This document shows positions 7,330 to 47,625 of a DNA stretch of 47,625 nt, one piece after another. A program made the position numbers and the translations under genes. Below the pieces are notes generated by a model. It worked only from the letters and a program-made list of their open reading frames with translations, did not search any database and was not told where the DNA came from. The stretch covers positions 1 through 47,625 of the IMG/VR virus record IMGVR_UViG_3300033145_001371. One strand, given 5' to 3'. Within the stretch, counting starts at the first letter, position 1. Each line of letters opens with the position of its first letter. Source of the DNA: a virus.

Positions 7330-7944
7330 ATGACCAAAAAGCAGAAAGCAAGATACGGTAAAAAGTGGAGAAAACTAAACAAGGATAAAACGAGAGGATA
7401 TTGTAAGAAGTATCGGAAGGAGAATAAAGAAAAATTACAGCAATATGGGAAGGAATACCGTAAGAAAAATAAAGAAAAAATACAGCAACACAAAAAGGAA
7501 TGCCGTAGGAAACTGCGACAATATAAGGAAAAGAATATAAGGGAAAGTGAAAAAAAACGACAAGAAATATATAGACAATATCTTAATCGTGACCCTAATT
7601 ACAACCGTGACCGACTAAATAGTAATATTGCAAAAGGAATTAATAGCTCGCTTAAAGGTAGGAAGGATGGACGTCACTGGGAAGATTGTGTAGGTTATAC
7701 TTTGAAACAGCTCATAAAACATCTTGAGAAACAGTTTGGAGAAGGAATGAACTGGGAGAACTATGGAGCTTGGCATATCGACCATAAGATTCCTCAATCA
7801 ATCTTTAACTTCACGAAGATAGAACATATTGACTTCAAGCGTTGCTGGGCGCTTAGCAACCTTCAGCCTTTGTGGGCTTTAGATAATCTTAAGAAAGGGG
7901 ATAGAATTACTAAACCTTTTCAATTATGTTTACCGGTAGGATAA
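7330..7944 (+). CDS. HNH endonuclease with Lys-rich repeat N-terminus
   Basis: About 204 residues from ATG 7330, chosen over TTG 7312 because AAAAGGAAGAG lies just before it. The N-terminal third is a very basic set of repeats of K-E-Y-R-K-x-N-K-E-K type, likely a DNA-binding helix array. The C-terminal third has W-H-I-D-H-K-I-P, then L-S-N-L-Q-P-L-W-A and N-L-K-K-G-D, the HNH layout of many free-standing phage nucleases. It interrupts the Mu F-protease interval and is probably a mobile homing gene. Confidence 0.8.
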   Translation: MTKKQKARYGKKWRKLNKDKTRGYCKKYRKENKEKLQQYGKEYRKKNKEKIQQHKKECRRKLRQYKEKNIRESEKKRQEIYRQYLNRDPNYNRDRLNSNIAKGINSSLKGRKDGRHWEDCVGYTLKQLIKHLEKQFGEGMNWENYGAWHIDHKIPQSIFNFTKIEHIDFKRCWALSNLQPLWALDNLKKGDRITKPFQLCLPVG

Positions 7945-8151: not shown

Positions 8152-9532
8152 GCTCCTGAAGACCGAGATGCAGAAAAGAGGCTTGAAATTTAGCTCCAAT
8201 ATGCCTCTAGACAAAGCCTCGTTCAAGAAGGCAATGGTCGGAATAGATGTAGAGAGCCTCAGCGACGTTGTTATTATCAAGGATTATGTTTCTATTAGCG
8301 GTCCCTTCGTAAAGTCTTCCAGGGAGGCTAAGGTAGTTGATATAGTTATCAAGGATGATGAAGAGAACAGGGATGAGGAGCTGGAAGAGCAGATAAGCGA
8401 GGCTGTGCAGAGTGAAACTAAAAAGAAATGTAAGTTTACCTATAGCAAGGCTGATTCGATTTCCTCTTTTATACCATTATTTGATAAAGTGATCAGGGCA
8501 AAAAAGGAAACGAGGAAAGTAGAAATCAGCAAACCAGAAACTATCGAAGATTACCACAGGATTCCCGTGAGAGAATGCAAGATAACGGCTACTATCGATA
8601 TTTCCGAGAAGGACGGAATAAAAGCCCTCTATTGCGGCAAGGAGAAGGAGATAGCGACATACCTTTTTCCTGTAGATAAGTTTACTATGAAAGAGGCAAA
8701 GGCTTGGATAAAGGAGCATTCTAAGCAAAAGTTTGATAAATCAGTTGGTGGAGCGAAAAACCTCCCTCTTGATGATACAGTTAAGTGGGATGCTGATGCT
8801 GCCGTGAAGAGAATGAGGAAACTGGCAGGTGGGCCAGACAAGGATAATATGGATTGGAGCAAATACCGCAGGGGTTTTGCTTGGTATGATCCTGAGAACA
8901 AAGAGAACTTTGGAGCATACAAGCTCCCCTTTGCCGATGTAATTGACGGTAAACTGACTGCGATTTGGGGAGGAATATTCAGGGGACTAGCAGTGCTTCT
9001 TGGAGCAAGAGGCGGAGTTGATGTTGGAGACGACAGGAAAGCTGTCTATAATTTCTATATCAGCTATTACAAAAGATTTGACAAAGAGCCACCAGAGTTC
9101 AGAAAATATGAGGAAGTAGAGCTGAAGAAAATGTTTCCAGAGGAGGAGATGGAAAAGATAGACTTCCAGTTCAAGAAAATTGACAAGAAGGAGCATATAG
9201 TTGGAGGTGTAGTTTACGGAGTAAGCGGTGGGCCCGATACACAAGGGGATACTGCAAGCAAAGAGGAAATCTGGAAAGCATTAAAGAAGTTTGCAATTAA
9301 TAAAGGTAATATAAAAGTAATGCATAAAGGCAAAAAACGAAATATTCCAATAGTCGAAAACTATTTTGTGGAATCCGATACATTTAAGGGAGGAACTGGA
9401 CCCGAACATTTATTGAAAGCAGGTGATTGGTGGCTGTCTCTTTACTTGGGTAATGAGAAAGAGATCTTCAATGATGTTTTGAGTGGAAAGTTGACAGGTC
9501 TGAGTATGGGAGGATTTGCGAGTAGCACTTGA
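8117..9532 (+). CDS. XkdF-like prohead protease with extra middle domain
   Basis: About 471 residues from ATG 8117; GTG 8108 is an alternative, but AGGTGAG is better placed for 8117. The middle carries W-D-A-D-A-A-x-x-R-M-R-K, G-F-A-W-Y-D and Y-K-L-P-F-A-D-V-I-D-G, a conserved region of unknown role often joined to phage proteases. The C-terminal 150 residues match the XkdF putative serine peptidase: I-V-G-G-V-V-Y, D-T-Q-G-D, V-M-H-K-G (His), I-V-E-N-Y-F-V-E-S and L-S-M-G-G-F. It should mature the procapsid. The gene ends just before promoter P2. Confidence 0.82.
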   Translation: MLARKELLEKYKLLKTEMQKRGLKFSSNMPLDKASFKKAMVGIDVESLSDVVIIKDYVSISGPFVKSSREAKVVDIVIKDDEENRDEELEEQISEAVQSETKKKCKFTYSKADSISSFIPLFDKVIRAKKETRKVEISKPETIEDYHRIPVRECKITATIDISEKDGIKALYCGKEKEIATYLFPVDKFTMKEAKAWIKEHSKQKFDKSVGGAKNLPLDDTVKWDADAAVKRMRKLAGGPDKDNMDWSKYRRGFAWYDPENKENFGAYKLPFADVIDGKLTAIWGGIFRGLAVLLGARGGVDVGDDRKAVYNFYISYYKRFDKEPPEFRKYEEVELKKMFPEEEMEKIDFQFKKIDKKEHIVGGVVYGVSGGPDTQGDTASKEEIWKALKKFAINKGNIKVMHKGKKRNIPIVENYFVESDTFKGGTGPEHLLKAGDWWLSLYLGNEKEIFNDVLSGKLTGLSMGGFASST

Positions 9533-9556
9533 CATATTAAAATACTTTATTATAAT
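9529..9556 (+). promoter_or_regulatory. promoter P2, sigma-70 consensus
   Basis: TTGACA at 9529-9534 and TATAAT at 9551-9556, spacer 16. The -35 box overlaps the stop of the protease gene. Transcription should start near 9563, just upstream of the structured leader and terminator at 9601-9685. Confidence 0.8.
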
Positions 9557-9562
9557 AAATAA

Positions 9563-9685
9563 TAATTAGGTTGGTAATGTTTGAAAAGTTAAAGGTTCGG
9601 TAGAGTTCCCTTTCGAGGGAAGCTCATGAAAGAACGCTTTAAGCTTTCGAGAAATTATACGAGAGTTTAAGACGTTCTTTTTTTT
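9563..9685 (+). ncRNA. structured leader or small RNA ending in a terminator
   Basis: A transcript from P2 would begin near 9563 and reach a strong terminator at 9685, giving about 120 nt. It includes an eight-codon frame (ATG 9577 to TAG 9603). A hairpin at 9603-9626 has a TTCCCT/AGGGAA stem and a TTCG loop, extended by GAG/CTC. The terminator follows. This layout fits an attenuator for the scaffold-capsid genes or a free small RNA. I know no family that matches it. Confidence 0.5.
9629..9685 (+). terminator. intrinsic terminator with about 20-bp stem
   Basis: AAAGAACG (9629-9636) pairs with CGTTCTTT (9673-9680). The stem continues through 9638-9649 with 9660-9671 using several G-T pairs, closing on a ten-base A/T-rich loop. 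Eight T residues end at 9685. It stands between the protease and the scaffold-like gene, so full-length late transcripts must read through it. Confidence 0.85.
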
Positions 9686-9714
9686 GTTAGATACCAAAAG
9701 AGAGGTAATTTTGA

Positions 9715-20801: not shown

Positions 20802-23800
20802 TTGGCAGTAGGAAGTAAGATCGGCGAAGCATATATACAATTAGAAGCCCGGATGGGTAAATATGAAGCCCAACTGAAGTCAGCAGAAGTAATGACTGGT
20901 AAATCAGTCGGCAAGATGCAGTCTAAATTTCAGGCTCTAGCTCCTACTTTTAGAAAAGTAGGCATAGGGATGGGTCTTGCCGGCGGAGCTATTACTGCAG
21001 CCGTTGTTGGAACTTTTAAAGCATTTACCGATTATGAAACAAAATTGGTGGATATGGCAAAAGTCACTGGCGAATCGTTTGAATCTATAGAAGAAAAAAT
21101 CACCAGCATAGACCCTATTTTAGGCAGTAGCACTCAATTAATGGCTGGCTATTACCAAGTAATTTCAGCAGGTGTAAAGGACCCTGTAAAGGCTTTGGAG
21201 ACTCTAACTATTGCTGCGCAAACAGCAAAAGCTGCGCACGTTGACCAATCAGAAGTTGTCAAAGGGATTACTAAAATGATGGCTGGTTACGAGGGTGCAA
21301 TAAAAAGCACTTCTGAAGCTGCGGATTTGTTATTTAGTATAGAAAAAGAAGGTCAAACTTCTGTTGCAGAATTAATTCCTGTAATTGGTGGATTAGCAAA
21401 AGTATCTTCTGACCTGAATATAGACCAAATAGCTATGGCGGCATCAATGGCTACCATTACAAAAACGGCTGGAAGCACAGCAGAAGCGTCAACTCAGTAT
21501 GAAGCAATTTTAACTGGATTGATGAAACCTACCGAAAATATGACTAAAGCTATATCAAAAATGGGTTATGAAACAGCAGAGGCGGCTATAAAAGAATTAG
21601 GTTTTGTGCAAGTATTGAAAAATCTTGAAGAAGAAACAGGTGGAAGTGCACAGGCTTTAGGTGAATTGTTTGGTCGAAAAGAAGCTATGATTGGATTTTC
21701 AGCATTGGGAGCTAAAGGGTTTGAAACTCTAAATGATACTATAGTAGAAGTAGGAAAGGGTGTAGGTAGTCAGAAAAGAGCATTCGATGAGTGGTCAAAA
21801 TCAGGCCAGGCATCGATAGAGGAAATTAAAAATACTTTTGTCAATTTTGGTGTAGATGTTGGAAGAATATTAGCTCCGAAAATCAAGGAATTAATGGGAA
21901 AAATAACGGATATTATCAAAAAAATATCAGACTGGGCAAAAGCTCATTCGGGTATTACCTCAGCTATAGTCAAATTTGCAGTGGTTCTGGGGCCCCTTCT
22001 AGTGGGTCTAGGTGGCCTGCTGATGGTTCTACCTGGCTTAGTTACTCTAGCCCCTTTGGTTGGTGCGGCTTTTCATACTATGCTGGGGCCAGTCGGACTC
22101 GTCACCGCAGCAATAGCGGGGGCGGTAGCGGCATTCCTTTATTTCTACAAGACTAACGAAAAGTTTGCGGCCTTTATCAACAAAATGGGCGGAGCGATAA
22201 AAACTTTCGTTACAGACGCTTGGGATAGACTTGTCTGGCTTATTAAGAATTGGGGCGAGGTTTGGGAAGCAGCTAAACAGATAGTCACGGAGACCTTCAA
22301 GTTCATAGGCAAGACAATCTGGAAGGTGCTTACCAACAAGGACGCCTTTATTGCTTTTATTAAACTCTGGAGTCAATTATATATCTCAGTTGGCAAAATT
22401 ATAACTGATACTATGGTGTTTGTAGGAAAGGTGATTGCCAGGGCATCCTCAATTATCTGGGCCCCTATTTGGGAATCTCTGAAGTGGTTAGGTGAGCAAT
22501 TTGCTTACTGGTTCGGCAAGATAGAAAATGCCATACTCAAGGCAATCGGAACTGCGGTCAAATGGGTCACGGAAAAGTTTGTCAAGCTGGCCAACTTTAT
22601 TACCCAGAAAGTGTTGAACCCTATCATTGCGGGCTTTGAATCTTTTGCCAATGCTATCCTCGGTTCAATCGGCTGGGTAGTAGAGAAGATAATCAGATTA
22701 TTTGGCAAGTTGCCTAACTTCATTCTGAAGGCATTCGGGACTTCCAAAGAAGAGGTCAAACAGTTTGCGACCGACATCAAGGAAAAATTCGAGGTTGAAT
22801 TAGGACGGATACCTGAAATAGCCGAAGACGCTCTTACATTTGAAATCCCTCAGAAGACCCTTCAAGAGCCAAAGAAGTTTGCCGACCGAATGAGCGATGC
22901 CTGGGAAATTATCAAGGCACAATACCGAGATATCCCTGGTGACCTAGCAATTTACCTTAAACAATTGGAAACAGAATGGAACGAAATTACGGCTGCTGCT
23001 GGTGAGTTTGGCGATGCAGTGGGTGTTGAAGAATATAAAGCTAAAATTGATGGTGTGATAGCCAAATTAAAGGAACTTGGAATAGATACTACTGAACTTG
23101 AAAAAACACAAAAAGAGTTACAAGAACAATTAGATAAAACAGCAGGCTCAGTTAATAAACTGACAAAGAATCTGGATAACCTGAAGGATGTAGCTATAGC
23201 CACAGGCAAAAAGCTAGTAAAAAGTTTTGATGATTTTGAGGACGTAGCCATACCAGCGACTGCCAATGTCACAGATGCAATAGTAGTATTTCTTAAAAAA
23301 CTGGATGGTGTCACTGAGGCTATCGAAAAGATACCTCCAGCATTGGCAAAAATTAAGGATATAGACGCGTTGGGAGATATTAACGAAGCTCTTGAAGCTT
23401 TATATATGTCGTTTAAGCCTTTCCCCCCAGTTATCGAGAAAGTATCTAAGGCACTCCAGGAAATTAAAGACGTAGAAGCGTTAGGAGACATAAACGAAGC
23501 ACTAGAATTATTGTATATGTCATTTAAACCTCTTCCTAGAACTATCGAAAAAACACGATTGAACTTGGAAAAAATCAAGGATGTGGACGCATTAGGGGAT
23601 ATTAATGAAGCACTAGAATTATTATATCTTTCATTCAGACCGCTTCCTGAGGCTATTAAAAAGATACCAATAGGAATTAAGAAAGCAGAAGACGTTATAG
23701 TCCCAGCTTTTGTCAATATTTCGGTTGCCCTTAGAGACTGGATTATTATGATGACTAAACCTTTACCTGCGGCTATTAAAGCAATCCCCATAGCAGTTGA

Positions 23801-41441: not shown

Positions 41442-41469
41442 TTGACAAAAAATATTGAGGTGGTATAAT
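41442..41469 (+). promoter_or_regulatory. promoter P4, sigma-70 consensus
   Basis: TTGACA at 41442-41447 and TATAAT at 41464-41469, spacer 16. Transcription should start near 41476, which is one base before the GTGAGGGAA element of the leader. It is internal to the early region and gives the gene at 41665 its own transcription start. Confidence 0.85.
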
Positions 41470-41475
41470 TAAAAT

Positions 41476-41581
41476 AGTGAGGGAAGAAATGAACATAATC
41501 AAAAATACAATTAGGAAAAAATTAAAAACTGCTCTAGGCTATGTTCAGCCTATTCCCTCACGGAAATTGAGCAGTTTTTTT
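41476..41581 (+). ncRNA. structured leader with possible pseudoknot, ending in a terminator
   Basis: A transcript of about 105 nt from P4. Its 5' end, GTGAGGGAA (41477-41485), is perfectly complementary to TTCCCTCAC (41553-41561), which lies in the loop of the terminator stem. An inner hairpin TAGGCT/AGCCTA (41535-41552) stacks on that stem. Pairing of the 5' end with the loop would make a pseudoknot or compete with the terminator, and would hide the GAGGGAAG ribosome-like site before ATG 41489. It may be an attenuator for 41665 or a small RNA. Confidence 0.6.
41524..41581 (+). terminator. intrinsic terminator
   Basis: AAAAACTGCTC (41524-41534) and GAGCAGTTTTT (41569-41579) form a perfect 11-bp stem, followed by a T-run ending at 41581. 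The long loop is itself structured. The stem begins with A's, so it could act in both directions. Confidence 0.85.
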
Positions 41582-41585
41582 CATT

Positions 41586-41628
41586 GGGCTCGTTATCGGA
41601 CTGCCTTTTGGTTTTCTGGTGCGAGCCC
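41586..41628 (+). other. second hairpin in the 41665 leader
   Basis: GGGCTCG (41586-41592) pairs perfectly with CGAGCCC (41622-41628) around a 29-base U-rich loop. It lies between the terminator and the ribosome site (AAAGGAG, 41652-41658) of the membrane-protein gene. Confidence 0.6.
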
Positions 41629-41664
41629 GTACTATTTTGAAAAAACTAATAAAAGGAGAAGTAG

Positions 41665-42075
41665 ATGGCAGAAAAGAAAAAGAGAAAAGGTTGGATGGTC
41701 GCCCTAGGAATGATATTTTTTCTGATAATTCTTATGGCAGGGGTCGGGATTCTGGTAAGTGATAGCGAAACAACCAAAACAGAAGTAGTGCAAACTAAGA
41801 CCCTGAGTGCAGAAATAACGTTTGATGGATCTCAATTCATTATCACTAATAATGATAATTATACCTGGACTTCAGTCAAGTTTATGCTGAATAGCGGCAT
41901 TATTAGTGATGGCTATGTTCTGAGATATTCCCGAATTGAAGCAAAGACTACTTATACCGTAGGAACGTTGCAGTTTGCCAAATCAGACGGAACAAGATTC
42001 AACCCTATTACTATGAAACCGCAAAGTATTGTTATTCTTGCTGACCAGGGAAATTGTGCCCTCTACTGGAAATGA
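41665..42075 (+). CDS. membrane-anchored extracellular beta-domain protein (cargo candidate)
   Basis: A 136-residue protein. A basic start (KKKRKGW) and one membrane span (residues 9-31) are followed by an outside domain of about 100 residues with an immunoglobulin-like beta pattern (A-E-I-T-F-D-G-S-Q-F-I-I-T-N-N-D, W-T-S-V-K-F-M-L-N). It has its own promoter P4 and regulated leader. That is typical of a moron-type gene expressed apart from the rest, for example for superinfection exclusion or host surface change; this role is inference. AAAGGAG precedes ATG 41665. Confidence 0.65.
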   Translation: MAEKKKRKGWMVALGMIFFLIILMAGVGILVSDSETTKTEVVQTKTLSAEITFDGSQFIITNNDNYTWTSVKFMLNSGIISDGYVLRYSRIEAKTTYTVGTLQFAKSDGTRFNPITMKPQSIVILADQGNCALYWK

Positions 42076-42095: not shown

Positions 42096-42326
42096 ATGAA
42101 TATAGAAAAATTAGCTAAGTTTTTTTACTCAAGTAATTCAAGCAATGATGTTCCCTTTAGATTATCCCTATCGGCAGGACAATATAGCGGGTTTGACTTA
42201 GATGAGGAGCAAATAAAGGAATTATTGAAATTTTTACAAGACGAAAAGAACTATAATAAGGAAAAATTTCAAGGTTTCCTAGAGAAATGGATTTATCCGA
42301 ATGAGAGGACAAAAAATGAACTATAA
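42096..42326 (+). CDS. small hypothetical protein
   Basis: A 76-residue protein (F-D-L-D-E-E-Q-I-K-E-L-L-K-F-L helix) after TAAGGAGG. It overlaps the replication gene by 11 bases. No family recognised. Confidence 0.6.
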   Translation: MNIEKLAKFFYSSNSSNDVPFRLSLSAGQYSGFDLDEEQIKELLKFLQDEKNYNKEKFQGFLEKWIYPNERTKNEL

Positions 42327-43017
42327 CGGATGGCTTCGTTTTCATAGGAAACAGTGGGGTAATTGGATTAGTGAGGATAAACCATTTTGTAAAGGATATG
42401 CTTGGACTTATTTATACTCTGAAGCTAATTGGGAAGATGAAATATGGGCAAAAGAAAACGTTAAAATTAAAAGAGGACAGCTTCCTACTTCTGTTAATAA
42501 ATTGGCACAAAATTGGGGGTGGAGTAGAGGCAAAGTTAATACGTTTCTAACCAGACTCAAAAATGATAGGATGATTGACATCGAAAAGACAATAAAATAT
42601 ATCGTGGTAACTATTATCAATTATGAGTTATACCAATCAAAGGAAGGTGAACCTGACACAAACCTGACACAAAAAAGACATAAAACCTTACATACTATAA
42701 GAAGTAAAGAAGTTAAGAATATAAAAAGAACTACTACTACTAAACAGAAGCAGAAAATTAACTTCGACTTTGATAAAGAAATTTGGGAAAATATTACAGA
42801 TAAAGATATTGTCTCTTGGAGTAATGCTTATCCTGCATGTCGGATAGATCTTGAATTAAAGCAAATGGAACAGTGGTTATTGAGTAATCCTGATAAAAAG
42901 AAAAGCAGATATAGAAGATTTATTACTAACTGGCTTATAAGGTCACAGGATAAAGGTGGCACAAAAGGGCTAGTAAAAGACAATATCGACAACTTACCAA
43001 ACTTGATGGAGGACTAA
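42316..43017 (+). CDS. replisome organiser / replication initiation protein
   Basis: About 233 residues from ATG 42316; ATG 42301 is in frame but poorly placed. The N-terminal domain is a winged helix typical of phage replisome organisers (Y-L-Y-S-E-A-N-W, R-G-Q-L-P-T-S-V-N-K-L-A, G-W-S-R-G-K-V-N-T-F-L). A linker and a C-terminal helical region (M-E-Q-W-L-L-S-N-P-D-K-K-K-S-R-Y-R-R-F-I-T-N-W-L) follow, as in helicase-loading proteins. Two 11-bp iterons lie in the linker-coding DNA. It stops one base before the helicase gene. Confidence 0.82.
   Translation: MNYNGWLRFHRKQWGNWISEDKPFCKGYAWTYLYSEANWEDEIWAKENVKIKRGQLPTSVNKLAQNWGWSRGKVNTFLTRLKNDRMIDIEKTIKYIVVTIINYELYQSKEGEPDTNLTQKRHKTLHTIRSKEVKNIKRTTTTKQKQKINFDFDKEIWENITDKDIVSWSNAYPACRIDLELKQMEQWLLSNPDKKKSRYRRFITNWLIRSQDKGGTKGLVKDNIDNLPNLMED
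42650..42671. repeat. two tandem 11-bp iterons, possible replication origin
   Basis: AACCTGACACA occurs twice in a row (42650-42660 and 42661-42671) in the middle of the organiser gene, followed by about 80 bases of A-rich DNA. Lambdoid and similar phages keep their origin inside the initiator gene in this way. Confidence 0.55.
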
Positions 43018-44283
43018 ATGGAAATAGAAAAGGCTTTTCTGGCCAACCTGATAACAGGCGGACTCAAAGAGGCCAAAAAGATTAAGGAGATTATTCACCC
43101 GAATGATTTCATAGTAGAAATGCACCAGGAAATATATCAGGCAATAGTCGAATTTGTGGAGAATGATAAGCCGTTTGACGCCCCTCTCCTGATTGACCAT
43201 CTGCGGGTTCATTCTCGTCTGGCGAATGCGACTACACCTGTTAGATATTCTAAGGTAATCCTAGATATATTGGATTGGAAGGTTAGCTCTGCTCTCCAGG
43301 GTGAGTATATCGAGAAGTTCTATGAACAGAGATTGCGCAGGAAAATATCAGCAATCATAGAAGAGCTTCCTGAGAATTTTGACAAGGTTGACCCTGCCGA
43401 TTTTTTCAAAAAGATAGATAATATCAAAAAAGAGGTGAAGGGAATAAGTGAGTTTGTCAAGCTATCAGATATAATGAGCAGAGTCCTGGATAGCATAGAG
43501 AAAAAGCAGGGCGTAGACTTCCAGTTCTCACTTATGGATTTAAACAATTCGCTAGGTGGGCTAGCTAGAGGCGAGTTGCTGCTTATCGGCGGTTTCACCT
43601 CGCAGGGCAAATCTAGCCTGTGCATCCAAATGGCTATGGACTTCGCCGAGCAGGGCAAAAAGGTGCTATTCTGCTCCTCAGAGATGAGCGAGTTCGAGAC
43701 CGCCAGGAGAGTTTTGGGTAATTACTGTGACTTGGTAATTAGCGACTTGAGAAGGGGGATACTGGAAAGGGACATATCTGAATTACGAGACGTGATAGAT
43801 ACATTGAAATCCTGGAAGGTTGTCCTCCATATTATATCCAGCACTGAGCAAGTCGGTAAAGCAGTGCTTAAATACCAGCCTGACATTGTTATAGTCGACC
43901 ATCTGCATAATCTGAGAGGACAGGGCAGGAGTCCTTATGAGCGAACTACTTATAATATTAAAAGTTTGCATGAAATCTGCAGAGTGGAAAGGGTAGGAAT
44001 GGTAGTTGCCAGTCAGCTCCACAGGCCACAAGATGAGAAGTTGAGACCTCCCAGAATATCTGACTTGAGGGAAAGCGGGGCGGTGGAGGAGACGGCCAAC
44101 AGTATCATTCTGCTATACTGGAAGAACCAGAGGGAGAACGGGGAGATAAAAGAACAGGAAATAATGGAGGTCAGACTGGTCAAGAACAGGGACGGCAAGA
44201 CTGGCAAATTTCCTATGCTTTTTGAACCTCGCTATTGTAGGTTTAGAAATATTTTCAAGGGAGATATACCAAATGGCAAGTAA
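43018..44283 (+). CDS. dnaB: replicative DNA helicase, DnaB-like
   Basis: A 421-residue protein. An N-terminal DnaB domain (residues 1-110) and linker are followed by the RecA-type core: Walker A G-G-F-T-S-Q-G-K-S-S (191-200), S-S-E-M-S (220-224), Walker B V-I-V-D-H-L-H-N (291-298), the Q-L-H-R-P segment, and S-D-L-R-E-S-G-A-V-E-E-T-A-N near 350. All core motifs are intact. It follows the organiser gene directly and would be loaded by it. No primase or polymerase gene is seen, so the host supplies those. Confidence 0.93.
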   Translation: MEIEKAFLANLITGGLKEAKKIKEIIHPNDFIVEMHQEIYQAIVEFVENDKPFDAPLLIDHLRVHSRLANATTPVRYSKVILDILDWKVSSALQGEYIEKFYEQRLRRKISAIIEELPENFDKVDPADFFKKIDNIKKEVKGISEFVKLSDIMSRVLDSIEKKQGVDFQFSLMDLNNSLGGLARGELLLIGGFTSQGKSSLCIQMAMDFAEQGKKVLFCSSEMSEFETARRVLGNYCDLVISDLRRGILERDISELRDVIDTLKSWKVVLHIISSTEQVGKAVLKYQPDIVIVDHLHNLRGQGRSPYERTTYNIKSLHEICRVERVGMVVASQLHRPQDEKLRPPRISDLRESGAVEETANSIILLYWKNQRENGEIKEQEIMEVRLVKNRDGKTGKFPMLFEPRYCRFRNIFKGDIPNGK

Positions 44284-47471: not shown

Positions 47472-47621
47472 ATGACAATAATATCGTATATTCTGTTTCC
47501 AGTAGGCATATTGATAGGAATGATAGTAGGACAGCTTTCAGTTTGGAGGTATCTCAGGAAGAAAAGGACTGTTCGTATTGATATATGGGAATATAGTGCA
47601 AGGAAAATTACTAAAACTTGA
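47472..47621 (+). CDS. small membrane protein at the genome junction
   Basis: A 49-residue protein with one membrane span (ISYILFPVGILIGMIVGQL) and a basic C-terminal half. GGGAGGG lies upstream of ATG 47472. Its last seven codons fall in the terminal repeat, so its stop codon and the -35 box of promoter P1 share bases when the ends are joined. Confidence 0.55.
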   Translation: MTIISYILFPVGILIGMIVGQLSVWRYLRKKRTVRIDIWEYSARKITKT

Positions 47622-47625
47622 AACT
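47600..47625. repeat. terminal direct repeat (right copy)
   Basis: It matches 1-26 at 25 of 26 positions. The mismatch (A at 47622 for C at 23) changes the -35 box from TTGACA to TTGAAA in this copy. Confidence 0.8.

Follow-up and report, generated by a model that had tools for sequence, protein, structure and literature searches.

The late gate of phage lambda, pR'-tR', with its 6S RNA and Q protein, places a strong promoter and then a close intrinsic terminator before a gene block. Classical attenuators, such as the L10 leader of B. subtilis rplJL, are built from a terminator and an antiterminator (PMC4538822). From a single promoter, IsrK of the Gifsy-1 prophage yields both a terminated short RNA and a read-through mRNA, with alternative structures and a hidden ribosome site (PMC4825925), and in Tn916 terminators before the replication genes are overcome most likely via a cis-acting RNA, canT (PMC11658703). 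Studies of IsrK and Tn916 show layouts of this type in use by mobile elements. For uncultivated phages, it is mostly unknown how the timing of gene blocks is achieved with host polymerase alone.

Here, we analysed the virus record IMGVR_UViG_3300033145_001371 over its whole length of 47,625 bases (the window). It contains two units with the layout of an attenuator, that is promoter, leader and intrinsic terminator before a gene. We give about even weight to the reading that unit 1 is a promoter-leader-terminator gate (a transcription attenuator) at the entrance of the replication block and that unit 2 gates the structural block likewise. An attenuator at unit 1 had been suggested in an earlier note; its promoter, its terminator and the competing pairing were borne out, and the lack of an Rfam match and a second unit of like build add to them, while the proposed control of a cargo gene was not supported.

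Gene layout and promoters of the record

The genes of the record run almost all rightward and include terminase, portal, tail, exonuclease, DnaD-like and DnaB-like genes. A near-exact 26-bp terminal repeat at its ends (1-26 and 47600-47625) suggests that the record is near-complete; the one mismatch of the repeat falls in the TTGACA of the 19 promoter. The tape-measure-like gene holds three 96-nt repeats spaced 111 nt apart (23350-23667). A terminase gene with 57% identity to that of the record is found on a contig (L050, 1-3507) binned as a Candidatus Aenigmatarchaeota genome, a bin that may contain a stray phage contig.

Promoters matching the consensus at 12/12 positions occur three times on the + strand, at 19, 9529 and 41442, compared with a shuffle mean of 0.1 per genome. 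Only those at 9529 and 41442 have a strong terminator close behind, and these two terminators are also the only strong ones on the + strand that stand between genes with a clean U-tract.

Promoter, terminator and leader pairing of unit 1

The elements of unit 1 are as follows.

41442-41469, + strand: promoter, sigma-70 type, TTGACA-16-TATAAT with TG before the -10, 12/12 match
41477-41485, + strand: leader segment L1, GUGAGGGAA, including the SD-like GAGGG; exact complement of 41553-41561
41489-41707, + strand: SD-led open frame spanning the terminator and the second hairpin; non-gene-like composition
41490-41497, + strand: leader segment L2, UGAACAUA, overlapping the AUG at 41489; complement of 41538-41545, paired in the MFE fold
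41524-41581, + strand: branched intrinsic terminator (predicted) with outer stem, two inner hairpins and U-tract; same shape in L042, the relative described below
41538-41561, + strand: terminator-interior segments, the partners of L2 and L1
41586-41628, + strand: hairpin of 8+6 bp with a bulged U, 3' of the U-tract; conserved, z -5.8

The consensus promoter reported in the earlier note is thus present in full, including the TG ahead of its -10, and transcription is predicted to start at ~41476. The 11-bp terminator described there has the expected stem, of ~11 bp, and the exact complement; it is branched rather than a simple hairpin, the outer stem enclosing two small hairpins (z -5.3), and what had been called its loop (41553-41561) is in part the 5' arm of the second inner hairpin. 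The hairpin past the U-tract had been given as 7 bp and in fact comprises 8+6 bp with one bulged U.

The perfect complementarity of nine bases that drew attention to the leader is exact: GTGAGGGAA (41477-41485) is the complement of TTCCCTCAC (41553-41561), and this pair pattern occurs once in the whole record and in 0/100 shuffles. Beyond the earlier note, we found a second pairing of 8 nt between TGAACATA (41490-41497) and TATGTTCA (41538-41545), which stacks with the first in the same register to give a long collinear helix. The joint duplex of L1 and L2 reaches -27.1 kcal/mol, an energy matched in 0/5,000 dinucleotide shuffles and also attained in 47/4,752 genome windows (1%); the joint duplex is strong, but not unique.

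These statistics bear on an alternative in which an ordinary terminator of the upstream operon lies beside the promoter of the next operon and a purine-rich transcript start matches a pyrimidine-rich stem by chance. Taken alone, the 9-mer has p ~0.02 in dinucleotide shuffles of leader and terminator; genome-wide, 23 pairs of 9 nt, this one included, are exactly complementary with starts 40-100 bases apart (several of them overlapping). The pairing is also missing in L042, and all of this would fit chance. We nevertheless hold this alternative to be very improbable: the joint pairing is better than all 5,000 shuffles, and the promoter is upstream of the terminator, so that its transcripts must traverse it, an order that recurs in unit 2.

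Alternative folds and the ribosome site of unit 1

Folding without pseudoknots gives -23.7 kcal/mol for the leader pairing vs -22.2 kcal/mol for the branched terminator, and transcripts that end before the 3' arm of the terminator are predicted to form the leader pairing first. The outer terminator stem could also form as a pseudoknot beside the paired leader, so that leader pairing need not block termination. The two roles proposed for the pairing were competing with the terminator and bracing it; the two folds are near-isoenergetic alternatives, and the pseudoknot could allow both folds.

The same pseudoknot is central to another explanation, a small RNA gene whose stable product of ~105 nt has its 5' end locked in the terminator and acts in trans or, IsrK-like, on its own read-through transcript. 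When energies are added up roughly, the state with the 9-bp pairing, the outer stem and one of the inner hairpins comes out ahead (-19.1 and -14.2 kcal/mol, any pseudoknot penalty aside), the concealed SD and AUG fit a non-coding product, and IsrK with its short and read-through isoforms is a prophage precedent (PMC4825925). Yet the leader sequence is not kept in L042, where no promoter would produce such an RNA, and we judge a small RNA gene to be distinctly unlikely.

The ribosome-like site that the earlier note described as hidden is there: the SD-like GAGGG lies in L1 and the AUG at 41489 is overlapped by L2, and leader pairing therefore conceals it. The open frame behind it scores 0.009 per codon, compared with -0.043 off frame and 0.215 for real genes in frame. 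A conserved leader peptide was considered, as "FFxWARY" is common to the record and L042, and rejected; the codon score is unlike that of genes, and between the record and L042 the conserved 3' arm of the hairpin falls in different reading frames, which places the conservation at the RNA level.

A relative of unit 1 and the gene block behind it

The sole relative found with the unit 1 element is L042 (IMGVR_UViG_3300024429_000009, record G020). It was reached via a recombination-directionality-like protein that is 71% identical when the full alignment is counted and 62% identical within the tblastn segment. Its positions 8900-9060 contain, in this order, SD and AUG, a branched terminator, a U-tract and a bulged-U hairpin. 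The terminator (8948-9006, z -3.1) is branched like that of unit 1, the leader likewise has an SD-AUG start with an open frame, and the hairpin has z -6.4. Comparing the bulged hairpin between record and L042, 14/14 pairs are kept and one is changed on both sides, which with two sequences is weak as covariation; slid controls drop to 33-57% paired.

The counterpart in L042 has no promoter, and the 9-nt pairing is lost there, the best remaining match being 7 nt (p ~0.15, 516/2,000 shuffles as good). Homologs whose complementary segments change without compensation had been named as evidence against the proposal, and L042, one divergent relative, goes part of the way in this direction, since its pairing is no better than chance and its promoter is absent. 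Elsewhere in L042, an intergenic stretch (7390-7450) combines an acceptor-like stem, AGCCCGT...GCGGGCT, with a T-loop-like GTTCAATCC; ARAGORN calls no tRNA.

Behind unit 1, the record has the following genes.

41665-42075, + strand: gene for a 136-aa protein with an N-terminal hydrophobic helix and a beta-rich domain
42301-43017, + strand: DnaD-like helicase loader gene (PHROG 2514, E 3e-25)
43018-44283, + strand: DnaB-like helicase gene (PHROG 19, E 2e-62)

For the 136-aa protein, the predicted structure (pLDDT 72.7) has one N-terminal hydrophobic helix and, in agreement with the earlier note, a beta-rich domain; its fold has no match in the PDB at E <0.001 and its gene none in Pfam or PHROG. 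A 13-nt exact inverted repeat lies within this gene (41842-41910, starts 41842 and 41898). The earlier note had taken this membrane-protein gene as the regulated cargo. We rejected it as the target of unit 1: its homologues in L010 and L011 are without the leader, and in L042 the element stands ahead of a replication gene and a gene for a DnaC-like loader (functions assigned by reading the sequences). For these reasons the target of unit 1 is probably the replication block. A type III toxin-antitoxin system was also rejected, as the downstream gene has no Pfam or PHROG match and the complementary pattern occurs once, where tandem pseudoknot repeats before a ToxN-like gene would be expected.

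Searches for further copies of unit 1 covered several collections. Broad conservation of the leader was rejected, since pattern scans of IMG/VR, run with the bulged hairpin and with the 9-nt pair, found chance matches only. DNA searches returned no match to unit 1 in the phage collection and one chance-level match in the plasmid collection, and relatives sought via the replicative helicase (genome contigs, phage and plasmid collections) gave no useful match. Helicase loader homologues in G007 and G018 were discarded as unit 1 sites; in G007 the loader is just 17 nt from the upstream gene, which leaves no room for the element. A weak model match in G005 (L047) was dismissed, being an ordinary tandem terminator whose long stem is perfect. 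At L047 1450-1545, the first of the tandem terminators is this perfect long hairpin, a 63-aa open frame comes next, and the phage has a related terminase.

A second unit before the structural block

A second promoter-leader-terminator unit, absent from the earlier note, lies at 9529-9687 ahead of the capsid block.

9529-9556, + strand: promoter, TTGACA-16-TATAAT, 12/12
9586-9598, + strand: predicted antiterminator strand AAGUUAAAGGUUC, pairing with the 5' arm of the terminator in predicted folds of truncated transcripts
9603-9625, + strand: hairpin GAGUUCCC/GGGAAGCUC with a bulged G
9629-9687, + strand: intrinsic terminator (predicted) and U-tract, with covariation in three phages; model match 9582-9687

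The terminator (9629-9680) starts 73 bases past the end of the 9529 promoter. Both L018 (G007) and G020 have homologous copies, which precede the same structural gene, and a model built on the three phages matches only these three among 20 virus records; the DNA search of the phage collection gave weak partial matches only. The hairpin, AGUUCC...GGAAGCU with its bulged G, is common to the three phages and occurs once per genome. A promoter is directly adjacent to the unit in two of the three; in L018 a gene stands between the unit and the nearest 12/12 promoter.

Terminator and hairpin together are 93.9% paired with nine both-sides changes, and 0/500 shuffles match either value; slid controls are far lower. 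In all three phages, truncated transcripts are predicted to fold as antiterminator and full-length transcripts as terminator. The antiterminator helix has eight columns changed on both sides, counted in a three-sequence alignment made by hand along the predicted folds and hence biased towards them. The antiterminator duplex is clear of shuffles in two of the three phages (as good in 9/2,000 for the record and 0/2,000 for L018), and no better than shuffles in G020 (245/2,000). The predicted fold switch of unit 2 has comparative support; for unit 1, a fold switch is suggested by one genome's sequence and by the analogy with unit 2. Switching is better supported in unit 2 than in unit 1.

Unit 2 also helps to weigh a constitutive gate of promoter and terminator as in lambda pR'-6S-tR', at which every leader transcript would be terminated until a phage protein made the polymerase termination-resistant, and leader pairing would be uninvolved in the switch. 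Perfect promoters just ahead of terminators at the start of both the replication and the structural block speak for such a gate, as does the terminator of L042, which lies inside a rightward operon without a promoter of its own, so that something must overcome it. The three promoters, however, have no obvious common element beyond the consensus, and the alternative RNA folds of unit 2 with their covariation exceed what the model needs; we regard a protein-operated gate as possible, though rather unlikely.

Proposed mechanism

On the attenuator reading, the perfect promoter of unit 1 would fire and many transcripts would be expected to end at the branched terminator, ~105 nt on. Early pairing of L1 and L2 with the terminator interior would abolish the two inner hairpins, and the polymerase would read on. 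An occupant of the 5' end, either an initiating ribosome or a regulator, would liberate the terminator interior and favour termination; the trigger may be a ribosome that loads on the hidden SD, a protein of the phage or a signal from the host. The hairpin past the U-tract may serve the read-through transcript as an element for processing, stability or factor binding, and by analogy it is a candidate for a processive antiterminator RNA (put, canT). Unit 2 would act in the same manner as a separate gate for the structural block. The sequence anatomy, the predicted shapes of the terminators, the presence of terminator and second hairpin in one relative of unit 1 and the covariation in unit 2 are direct results of the analysis; from these we infer termination, switching and a trigger, and a shared logic of unit 1 and unit 2.

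A more far-reaching version, which we consider unlikely, is that the replication and structural blocks are gated by two different self-contained RNA switches at the module borders and that, in the replication switch, the SD-bearing 5' end is itself the antiterminator, one 9+8 nt element reading out both ribosome loading and termination. Two structured units, one at the head of the replication block and one at that of the capsid block, suggest RNA gates that replace or join protein antiterminators, and unit 2, conserved in three phages, offers a concrete testable model.

Comparison with known systems

Rfam covariance models gave no match at the gathering threshold in the whole record, with sub-threshold chance matches only; known families (riboswitch, sRNA, abiF RNA and others) were accordingly rejected, and the earlier view of unit 1 as an undescribed RNA agrees with this. 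The gating principle is already known; within the reach of Rfam, the phage collection and a limited search of open-licence papers, the RNAs of both units are undescribed.

In classical attenuators like the L10 leader, the choice between mutually exclusive leader folds determines termination, as may be the case here; the present element is phage-borne and matches no Rfam family. The likeness to IsrK is one of layout only (one promoter, short and read-through forms, alternative folds and a hidden ribosome site), whereas sequence and genes differ and the open frame of the leader is without gene-like composition. Tn916 is likewise a mobile element with terminators ahead of replication genes; canT, however, works processively on distant terminators, while the competing segments described here overlap the terminator itself. 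Units 1 and 2 both resemble lambda pR'-tR' in placing a strong promoter closely ahead of an intrinsic terminator before a gene block, and differ from it in that unit 2 has a predicted RNA antiterminator with covariation in the hand-made alignment.
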